Of a DNA stretch of 39,609 nt, positions 11,771 to 14,948 are shown in pieces; position 1 is the first letter of the stretch; the number at the start of each line of letters is the position of its first letter. The notes under the pieces were generated by a model that did no database searches, had not been told where the DNA came from, and worked only from the letters and a program-made list of their open reading frames with translations. The stretch lies in NCBI GenBank assembly GCA_020719005.1, contig DYQZ01000005.1:1-39609 (forward strand), in the 5' to 3' direction. A program made the position numbers and the translations under genes. The stretch is from Candidatus Omnitrophus sp. (GTDB lineage: Bacteria > Omnitrophota > Gorgyraeia > Zapsychrales > Fredricksoniimonadaceae).

Positions 11771-12255
11771 ATCTGTATCCCTCGCGACATCGACGCGTAT
11801 CCCAGCGCCAATGCCAACGCATCAGACGCATCTAAGGTCAATTTATCCGCATCCACCTTAAGCACTTGTGCCACCACCCGGCATGTCTGTTCTTTGCTGG
11901 CATTGCCGTTGCCAACGACCGCCTTGCGGATCCGCTTAGGGCTTTCCTCAACGAGCAAAAGGCCCTGCTCGGCGCACACCAGACAAATAACACCGCGCGC
12001 ATGCCCCATAATGGAGGAGGTGACCGGATGCTTCACATGGCTGTATAACTTCTCAAGCACCAGCACATCTGGCTTATGCCGAACGACCAACCCGGTCAAA
12101 TGCGTATGTATTTTTAAGAGCTTTTCGGGTAGCGCGCCCGTCTGTTTCGGCTCAATGATCCCGGCCTCAACAGGCTTCACACGCCCGTCTTTATCAACTG
12201 TCACGACACCATACCCCGTAGCCTTAAGCCCGGGATCAATGCCCATTATCTTCAT
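11767..12255 (-). CDS. ruvC: crossover junction endodeoxyribonuclease RuvC
   Basis: MKIMGIDPGLKATGYGVV; VLEKLYSHVKHPVTSSIMGHARGV; ALALGYA. Confidence 0.96.
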   Translation of the reverse strand: MKIMGIDPGLKATGYGVVTVDKDGRVKPVEAGIIEPKQTGALPEKLLKIHTHLTGLVVRHKPDVLVLEKLYSHVKHPVTSSIMGHARGVICLVCAEQGLLLVEESPKRIRKAVVGNGNASKEQTCRVVAQVLKVDADKLTLDASDALALALGYASMSRGIQI

Positions 12256-13004
12256 TATTCTGCAATAGCTGCCATATCTTCGTCGGAAATATCGAAGTTG
12301 GCATACACATTTTGAACGTCTTCCAGATCTTCCAGCGTTTCAATGAGTGCAAGAACACTCTTGGCTTCCTGACCCGCGACCTTGATCGTGGACGTCGGGA
12401 TCATCGTGACTTCCGCTGACTTCATCGGGATCTTTTTCGCTTCAACCGCAAGACGCACTTTTTCAAATACCGCGACTTCGGTCGTGATCTCATACGCATC
12501 ACCCTCAGTCGTCATATCCTCAGCCCCAGCCTCAAGAACAATGTCCATGAGATCGCTCTCGCCGATCGCCTTGGTCTCGACCACGATAAGCCCTTTTTTA
12601 TTGAACAAAAAAGCCACCGAACCCGGGGACGCTAAACTGCTGCTCTTACGGGTAAGCGCACTGCGTACTTCAGCGGTCGTGCGGTTCTTGTTATCTGTTA
12701 GCCCGTCGATAAAAATAGCCACGCCGCCTGGACCATACGCGTCGAACGTGAATGATTCATAAATAATTCCTTCGCCACCGCCGGTGCCTTTTTTGATAGC
12801 ACTCTCGACGTTAGAACCCGGCATACCGATACCACGCGCACGGGTCATCGCCATACGCAAACGCGGGTTCATATCCGGATCGCCACCGCCTTCTTTCGCC
12901 GCTGTGGTGATCTCTCGCGCCATCTTCGTGAACGAAGCCCCGCGCTTCGAATCCGTGATCGCCTTCTTATGCTTGATTTTTGCCCACTTTGAATGACCTG
13001 ACAT
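12255..13004 (-). CDS. yebC: YebC/PmpR (TACO1) family protein
   Basis: MSGHSKWAKIKHKKAITDSKRGASFTKMAREI signature. Confidence 0.97.
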   Translation of the reverse strand: MSGHSKWAKIKHKKAITDSKRGASFTKMAREITTAAKEGGGDPDMNPRLRMAMTRARGIGMPGSNVESAIKKGTGGGEGIIYESFTFDAYGPGGVAIFIDGLTDNKNRTTAEVRSALTRKSSSLASPGSVAFLFNKKGLIVVETKAIGESDLMDIVLEAGAEDMTTEGDAYEITTEVAVFEKVRLAVEAKKIPMKSAEVTMIPTSTIKVAGQEAKSVLALIETLEDLEDVQNVYANFDISDEDMAAIAE

Positions 13005-13045
13005 GATCCTGCCTCCGTTAACTGCGTTTGTTTTTTAATCTCTAT

Positions 13046-13388
13046 ATCAAGCAGACCATAAGCCGAGTTCTGTTCCTCTCCCGAAGGAAAGGCGGACAGC
13101 CATCTGTCTCACTCCACCAGTCGCCCGGCGGACTCTTGCGGCCTACCCGGGAATACGAACGGTACGGATGATACCGTGTCCGAAGACTCTTCCCATATTT
13201 GGCCTTACTCCACGCAGAGAATGCCCGTTTCACCCTCTTCCCCGAAAGGAAAAGTATCGTCACTGTGGCTCTGATCATCCGCGGCTTTAACACCGCGCTC
13301 GCAGCGTTACCTGCGTGCGTTATCCTATGGAGCTCGGACTTTCCCCCCCGATGACAAATTCATCGGCGCGGCTATCCTGGCCTGCTTT
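13046..13388 (-). ncRNA. rnpB: RNase P RNA (bacterial, rnpB)
   Basis: minus strand CR-I GGAAAGTCCGAGCTCCATAGG (near 13324-13344) and CR-V ACAGAACTCGGCTTAT (13058-13073). P1 = AAGCAGGCC (13379-13387) x GGTCTGCTT (13049-13057); P2 = GGATAGCC (13370-13377) x GGCTGTCC (13094-13101); P3 = CCGATGA-5nt-TCATCGG (13348-13366). Confidence 0.95.
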
Positions 13389-13781
13389 TTTTCTAAGAAC
13401 AGACGATGCGAGGCGGTCAGCTTCTGTATTCTCTTCCCGCGGCACCGCTTTGAATTCAACCTTCTTGAAACTTTTTAAAAGTTCGATCGCTTCTTTGTGA
13501 AGCGGGATCATGTTCGGATGCTTGACCTTGTAGGCCCCCTTGATCTGGAAAAACATGAGCTCACTGTCCGTACGGACGCGGATATGCTCGGCGCTAAGTG
13601 TCTTGAGTTCTTTCAACCCGCGGATCAGGGCTGAATATTCCGCTACATTATTCGTCGTATTGCCAATGGCTTCCGCGACCCTACGAACAACTTTTCCGTT
13701 ACAATAGATGATCACACCCACAGAGGCAGGCCCGGGATTCCCGCTGCAGCCTCCATCTGTGAACATCTCATAAATATTCAT
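13320..13781 (-). CDS. rnhA: RNase HI family protein; 3' end overlaps rnpB
   Basis: YEMFTDGGCSGNPGPASVGV, NVAEYSALIRGLKEL, RTDSELMFFQIKGAYKVKHPNM, EENTEADRLAS; frame remains open about 68 nt into rnpB. Confidence 0.92.
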   Translation of the reverse strand: MNIYEMFTDGGCSGNPGPASVGVIIYCNGKVVRRVAEAIGNTTNNVAEYSALIRGLKELKTLSAEHIRVRTDSELMFFQIKGAYKVKHPNMIPLHKEAIELLKSFKKVEFKAVPREENTEADRLASSVLRKKAGQDSRADEFVIGGESPSSIG

Positions 13782-14506
13782 TACAGGTCTTCAGGCAGAT
13801 AAATGAACCGCGCACACATCTCACAACGGACCACATCTTCATACATCTTGATGCGATTTACCGTCTGTTCGGGAACATTCATGAAACACCCGCCGCACGA
13901 CATCCCTGCCACAGGAACAAGCGCGATCCCGCCGCGATTATCGATCACGCGTTCATAGACCGCCAACATATTTTTATCTATACCTTCAGCCGCCTCACGA
14001 CGCTGACCTGCCAGACCGTCCACTTTTTCTTCAAGTGCGCGGATGGCCGCATCTATCTTTTCTTTCTCAGCGAGATACTGCTTTTCTTCGCCCGCGAGGA
14101 ATTCTTTTTCTTTAACAACATCCTGCTGAAGCTTTTCAACCGTTTCCATCGACCGCAGGATCTCATCCTCAAGGATCGATTTATCAGCTTTCAGGTTCTC
14201 GATCTCAAAAAGCTTGATCTGATATTCTTTATTGGTCTTAAGGGTCATAAGCGCCGCATTCGCCTTGACGATATCATCTTCTTTATTCTTCAGATCCCCT
14301 TCAACCTTTTTACGCGCCAACTCAGCCTGCTTGATCGACGTCTCAAGTTCATGGAACTGCTGTTTCTTGGCCTCGTATTTTTCTTTCAGCCCTTCAAGCT
14401 CAGCCGGCTTGTCCTTTAGCCCGCGCTTGTACTCATAAAGCTCTGTATCAAACTTTTGAAGTGCGACGAGCTTCTTGATCAAATCCTTAACATTCTGTCC
14501 AGCCAC
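13781..14506 (-). CDS. coiled-coil protein with C4-type zinc ribbon (DUF164/CdsZ-like)
   Basis: long coiled coil, C-terminal CGGCFMNVPEQTVNRIKMYEDVVRCEMCARFIY. Confidence 0.88.
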   Translation of the reverse strand: MAGQNVKDLIKKLVALQKFDTELYEYKRGLKDKPAELEGLKEKYEAKKQQFHELETSIKQAELARKKVEGDLKNKEDDIVKANAALMTLKTNKEYQIKLFEIENLKADKSILEDEILRSMETVEKLQQDVVKEKEFLAGEEKQYLAEKEKIDAAIRALEEKVDGLAGQRREAAEGIDKNMLAVYERVIDNRGGIALVPVAGMSCGGCFMNVPEQTVNRIKMYEDVVRCEMCARFIYLPEDL

Positions 14507-14554: not shown

Positions 14555-14631
14555 TGGTGGACGCAGTAGGGATCGAACCTACGACCTCTGCCATGTGAGG
14601 GCAACGCTCTAACCAACTGAGCTATGCGTCC
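14555..14631 (-). tRNA. tRNA-Val (CAC), 3' CCA encoded
   Basis: minus strand GGACGCATAGCTCAGTTGGTTAGAGCGTTGCCCTCACATGGCAGAGGTCGTAGGTTCGATCCCTACTGCGTCCACCA; anticodon loop CTCACAT. Confidence 0.96.
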
Positions 14632-14761: not shown

Positions 14762-14820
14762 AATATATTTTATAAGAACTTTAAAAAGTCTTAATCTTTC
14801 TTTCCTGGTCGATAAAATAA

Positions 14821-14894
14821 TGGGCCCACCAGGACTCGAACCTGGGACCAAGAGATTATGAGTCTCCTGCTCTAACCGACTGAGCTATAGGCCC
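14821..14894 (-). tRNA. tRNA with CAU anticodon, most like tRNA-Ile2 (lysidine-modified); CCA not encoded
   Basis: minus strand GGGCCTATAGCTCAGTCGGTTAGAGCAGGAGACTCATAATCTCTTGGTCCCAGGTTCGAGTCCTGGTGGGCCCA; anticodon arm resembles tRNA-Ile2 (..GACTCATAATC.CTTGGTC) more than elongator or initiator Met. Confidence 0.85.
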
Positions 14895-14948
14895 AAGATC
14901 TCTATTACTTACTAAAAAGAACAATTCTAACTAGAAAAATGTCTAAAA

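Follow-up and report, generated by a model that had tools for sequence, protein, structure and literature searches.

How can the 5′ domain of RNase P RNA, an essential and almost universal tRNA-processing ribozyme, also supply the last codons of a protein gene read from the same strand, and what would keep the two readings together? The question is raised by a locus of Candidatus Omnitrophus sp. (order Zapsychrales, class Gorgyraeia, phylum Omnitrophota), analyzed here in a window of 39,609 nucleotides, where a sequence-only reading had placed the start of rnpB within the end of an RNase H-type ORF (rnhA). A cmscan search against Rfam recovered RF00010 over the complete model (positions 1–367; 156.9 bits, E = 7e-49, against a gathering threshold of 100 bits), and the coordinates of this match and of the ORF overlap. 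The alignment contains the conserved CR-I, its 3′ partner region and helices P1–P3; the folding z-score is −4.25, and no second RF00010 copy occurs in the genome. The P1 and P2 pairings proposed from the letters alone were borne out (13387–13379 with 13049–13057, and 13376–13370 with 13095–13101), and the estimate of about 68 dual-use nucleotides came close to the 69 nt measured (13320–13388), as the covariance model sets the rnpB 5′ end 68 nt upstream of position 13320. The overlap combines real RNA pairing with a real ORF, rather than marking a loose gene boundary, and it recurs across the order in a single frame (Table 1).

Table 1. Features of the rnhA–rnpB locus and its flanks, in window coordinates.
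Feature	Position	Strand	Remarks
yebC	12255..13004	−	Start lies 39 nt downstream of rnpB
rnpB, RNase P RNA, bacterial class A	13044..13388	−	RF00010, 156.9 bits
rnhA-like ORF, type I RNase H, 153 aa	13320..13781	−	PF13456/PF00075 at residues 4–128; last 22 codons and stop inside rnpB
Dual-coding rnhA/rnpB overlap, 69 nt	13320..13388	−	P1 and P2 5′ strands, whole P3, CR-I, stop codon
TAA stop of rnhA, after CR-I	13320..13322	−	Stop triplet in 53/55 read-through relatives
CR-I (GAAAGUCCGAGCUCCAUAGGA), codons ESPSSIG	13323..13343	−	RF00010 alignment, relatives
P3 hairpin, codons of ADEFVIGG	13344..13366	−	RF00010 alignment and covariation
P2 5′ strand	13370..13376	−	Partner 13095–13101; RF00010 alignment
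P1 5′ strand	13379..13387	−	Partner 13049–13057; RF00010 alignment
boxA-like TGTTCTTAGA, immediately before P1 and within the rnhA reading frame	13392..13401	−	9/10 match
CdsZ/CT398-like coiled-coil zinc-ribbon gene	13781..14506	−	Overlaps rnhA start by 1 nt (TAATG)

The PF00075/PF13456 domain scores of the ORF are 82.5 and 53.6 bits, above cut-off, and nothing else in the genome matches PF13456 (RVT_3/RNase H-like). Its best solved homologue is PDB 3hst (Rv2228c, Mycobacterium), aligned over residues 8–138; candidate sites of the DEDD catalytic residues were considered at the level of motifs, with TDGG, AEY, TDSE and ADRL visible in the translation and aligned to this structure. The RNase H fold is complete ahead of the overlap, leaving the rnpB-encoded tail, KAGQDSRADEFVIGGESPSSIG, as an extra segment outside the catalytic fold. 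The C-terminal peptide of the window ORF, ADEFVIGGESPSSIG, has its equivalent in relatives as ...EESPSSxG.

We fetched the rnpB loci of related genomes, mostly fragmentary assemblies, and located RNase H by profile, obtaining 75 loci from the order (54 in a first set and 21 held out). RNase H lies directly upstream of rnpB in 74 of them (54/54 in the first set, 20/21 in the held-out set), and in 55 loci the ORF continues across CR-I, always in the same frame (...EESPSSxG). Most of the 54 first-set ORFs stop 65–70 nt inside rnpB with the common ending (G)EESPSSxG-stop, and the held-out genomes (n = 21) repeat the first-set pattern. The stop itself follows CR-I in 39 of 41 read-through genomes of the first set (TAA 26, TAG 8, TGA 5) versus 8 of 13 others, and in 14/14 read-through members of the held-out set; pooled, the figures are 53/55 for read-through and 13/20 for uncoupled genomes (p = 0.001). 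Two read-through loci (L033 and L027) have lost this stop, to TAT and CAA, and their ORFs run to about +80. Comparison with related genomes thus finds the overlap to be common among relatives and its reading frame to be kept across an order; because the frame is the same each time and nearly every read-through genome has a stop behind CR-I, the overlap is confirmed as real and beyond chance.

Elsewhere in the class, RNase H almost invariably precedes rnpB directly as well, its boundary scattered mostly between about −300 and +99 and its tail usually 4–12 aa long; in other classes of the phylum the two genes are non-adjacent. Same-frame read-through also occurs in four class families (f44, f20, f36 and f43; loci L055, L097, L106 and L109), where CR-I is followed by a sense codon instead of a stop, so that the ORF extends ~4 codons further. 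Two further class loci (L059 and L107) read through in another frame.

What, then, holds the frame? Part of the sequence is under RNA constraint: CR-I is nearly invariant in relatives, an invariance due to RNA function, and the P3 pairs covary though they are codons, with six of seven canonical in at least 30 of 33 relatives, the seventh in 27, and several double-sided changes. Codon-position bias across P3 is weak, at 6.1 steps per site for third positions versus 4.0 and 3.7 for the others. One explanation is that the rnpB-encoded tail has a protein function of its own, for instance by binding to RNase P RNA or to some partner, which keeps the frame. The P1–P2 part is read in different frames by different families (AGQDGR versus EQAKMVA) although the frame at the CR-I end stays constant, a pattern that would point to selection on the ...EESPSSxG-stop end. 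That end, however, is the part fixed by RNA conservation, and the protein tree implies ~15 independent losses of read-through in the order, all at or near the tips. These losses show the tail to be dispensable over long times, and since it also lies outside the catalytic fold, selection on it looks weak; we regard a dedicated tail function as unlikely.

A second explanation dispenses with selection on the protein reading altogether: the rnhA stop drifted downstream, RNA conservation holds the frame open, and the tail is unselected. The scattered boundaries and occasional run-ons in two frames elsewhere in the class would be expected under such drift, as would the many losses of read-through and a CR-I that is nearly invariant for RNA reasons, but the lengths of the intervening segments argue otherwise. 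As a measure of frame we took the spacing between the RNase H ADxL motif and CR-I, which was a multiple of 3 in 64 of 72 order taxa versus 12 of 42 class taxa, and in 18 of the 20 held-out genomes with a usable distance. Length changes were then inferred on a tree that combined YebC with RNase H and the zinc-ribbon protein; triplets made up 26 of 34 in the order versus 14 of 38 elsewhere in the class, counts that are partly non-independent (Fisher p = 9e-4; binomial against the class rate, 3e-6). Of the eight changes in the order that were not triplets, none has a read-through descendant (0/8); this absence is partly definitional, because an uncompensated shift ends read-through, but the triplet excess is not.

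Within P3, too, changes of length come in threes or are offset exactly. The P2-to-CR-I length is 24 in two families of the order (f1 and f7) and 22, 25 or 49 in read-through members of five others (f2–f6), and the linker before rnpB offsets these differences by exactly the frame-restoring amount. Six loci carry single-lineage, non-triplet changes of this length (L031, L017, L048, L049, L082 and L137), and all six lack the usual-frame reading of CR-I; in L031, the ORF stops 75 nt upstream and P3 is one base shorter than in its sister L029 (P2-to-CR-I 23 versus 24). Once the ORF is uncoupled, as in these six loci, RNA length has changed freely. Nor does RNA conservation leave every frame open, since the other two are open from P1 through CR-I in only 25/54 and 13/54 genomes. 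With the triplet bias, the compensated linker and P3 lengths, the free length change after uncoupling, and a stop that is kept in coupled but often lost in uncoupled genomes, the frame and stop tests disfavor neutral run-on, which we consider distinctly improbable. The frame is kept beyond what RNA function needs, as dual selection would predict, and its retention is non-random, with both readings kept working by evolution.

The same layout bears on how the RNA is made. Because rnpB starts within the rnhA coding sequence, its mature 5′ end would be made inside rnhA codons, either from an internal promoter or through cleavage, a point already raised by the sequence-only reading that follows from the position of the overlap. 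Within the window, no canonical sigma-70 promoter was found ahead of rnpB; −10 matches at this position are weak in the order, and clear TATAAT boxes appear in some class and phylum members only. A boxA-like sequence (TGYTCTTTRA) precedes rnpB across the phylum, including classes in which rnhA is non-adjacent, and in the order it lies within rnhA codons, matching at 8/10 or better in 18 of 40 read-through relatives versus 7.5% under synonymous recoding. This distribution points to an antitermination element that has come to lie inside rnhA. On the other side, yebC follows rnpB in the order, usually within 15–130 nt (15 nt in L018), and because it sits so close behind, often with no obvious terminator between the two, rnpB has the look of an operon member. 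The window also contains tRNA-Val(cac) (14555–14631) and tRNA-Met(cat) (14820–14895), which share the strand of the zinc-ribbon gene, lie upstream of it and adjoin an rpoD-like sigma factor.

The sequence-only reading suggested that making RNase P RNA might preclude translating RNase H from the same transcript, and such an organization could in principle act as a regulatory switch, in which ribosomes ending rnhA cover P1–P4, block folding of RNase P RNA and couple RNase H output to RNase P. Termination at a fixed place just after CR-I would suit this mechanism, as would the position of rnpB between rnhA and yebC, often with short gaps; read-through, however, has been lost in many lineages, and an internal promoter would bypass ribosome coupling. 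A strict regulatory requirement for read-through is unlikely because the tail lies beyond the catalytic fold and because of the ~15 losses, and we give the switch a slimmer chance still than neutral drift. A gene-calling or assembly artefact, such as a missed earlier stop or a frameshift error, might be suspected where genomes are mostly fragmentary assemblies, but it is refuted by the independent recurrence of the same frame in 55 genomes and has next to no probability.

We therefore favor, with a probability of roughly 0.7, a long-standing overlap in which a protein gene runs into a housekeeping ribozyme encoded on its own strand, with the RNA first and the protein reading under weak selection. 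An ancestral rnhA directly upstream of rnpB would have lost its stop codon, and the ORF would have run on in the single frame that reads CR-I as EESPSSxG, with a U in the joining segment after CR-I supplying the UAA, UAG or UGA stop. Most of the tail sequence would be dictated by RNA function, while weak purifying selection on translation — for a harmless tail and a prompt stop, or for a minor tail function — would limit RNA-internal length changes to triplets. Transcription of rnpB would proceed through rnhA or from inside it, as part of a zinc-ribbon–rnhA–rnpB–yebC operon or from a boxA-associated start. Because the rnpB 5′ end would be made inside rnhA codons, one RNA molecule presumably could not be both an intact rnhA mRNA and a mature RNase P RNA.

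The bacterial RNase P holoenzyme also includes a protein, RnpA, whose gene usually follows rpmH. PF00825 (RNase P protein) matched in none of the 38 genomes sampled from the order, of which 23 reach a completeness of 90% or more, nor in four class families as sampled (f15, f18, f20 and f25); it is present in most other families of the phylum. A profile made from class RnpA sequences likewise gave no credible match in the order, the best (E = 0.016) spanning 32 positions and containing a stop. In 12 of 16 order rpmH loci a yidD motif lies 76–167 nt after rpmH, the sequence after rpmH in the other four being yidD-like by eye, and because yidD follows rpmH so closely, there is no room for rnpA between them in these loci. 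In the genome of the window, rpmH and then yidD are found at L145:63–488. HARP (TIGR03875), considered as a substitute RNase P, was matched in 0/38 order genomes.

RnpA has been reported in nearly all bacterial genomes (PMC6380272). The same reduced rpmH–yidD–yidC order has been reported in Aquifex, which also lacks rnpB (PMC10941002); the rpmH–yidD order is alike here, whereas rnpB is kept. The order thus retains rnpB without a detectable rnpA: a strongly diverged or relocated RnpA is possible, and RNase P may possibly have dispensed with RnpA or recruited a new partner. More genomes lack rnpA than share the overlap, and we draw no causal link between the two. One combined reading is highly improbable: RNase P would work without RnpA, the linked RNase H with its rnpB-encoded tail would have become a partner or expression-coupled regulator of the RNA, and the overlap would be kept because both products have to come from a single locus.

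Collectively, in most of 74 genomes from a single order, core helices of the ribozyme are at the same time codons. Nature thereby provides a test case for the sharing of a sequence between RNA and protein constraints, and for how one operon can yield an mRNA as well as a stable catalytic RNA. The order is also where an RNase P that lacks a protein, or has a new one, might be sought. A literature search of open-licence papers returned no report of an rnhA/rnpB or other CDS/rnpB overlap, nor of boxA with rnpB, and we know of no prior report of the rnhA/rnpB overlap.

Several known systems are related. Rv2228c-type RNase HI (3hst) is a Mycobacterium protein fused to a CobC-like phosphatase domain, whereas here the fold is followed by an rnpB-encoded tail. 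Compared with class A RNase P RNA (RF00010), the window rnpB is alike in its complete consensus structure and in scoring above the cut-off; it differs in that its 5′ domain doubles as the 3′ end of a coding sequence, that P3 length evolves in codon-sized steps, and that rnpA is undetected in the order. In Thermus, the protein genes rpmH and rnpA overlap in different frames, so that there too an RNase P subunit gene overlaps its neighbor, although here it is the RNA subunit, and RNA overlaps with protein. Also related are DapZ/dapB and MicL/cutC, whose small RNAs start in or are cut from the 3′ ends of coding sequences, their 5′ ends coming from an internal promoter or from processing (PMC9438474). 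These likewise begin inside an upstream same-strand coding sequence, but they are regulatory, whereas the RNA described here is an essential catalyst whose core elements are themselves codons, conserved across an order.
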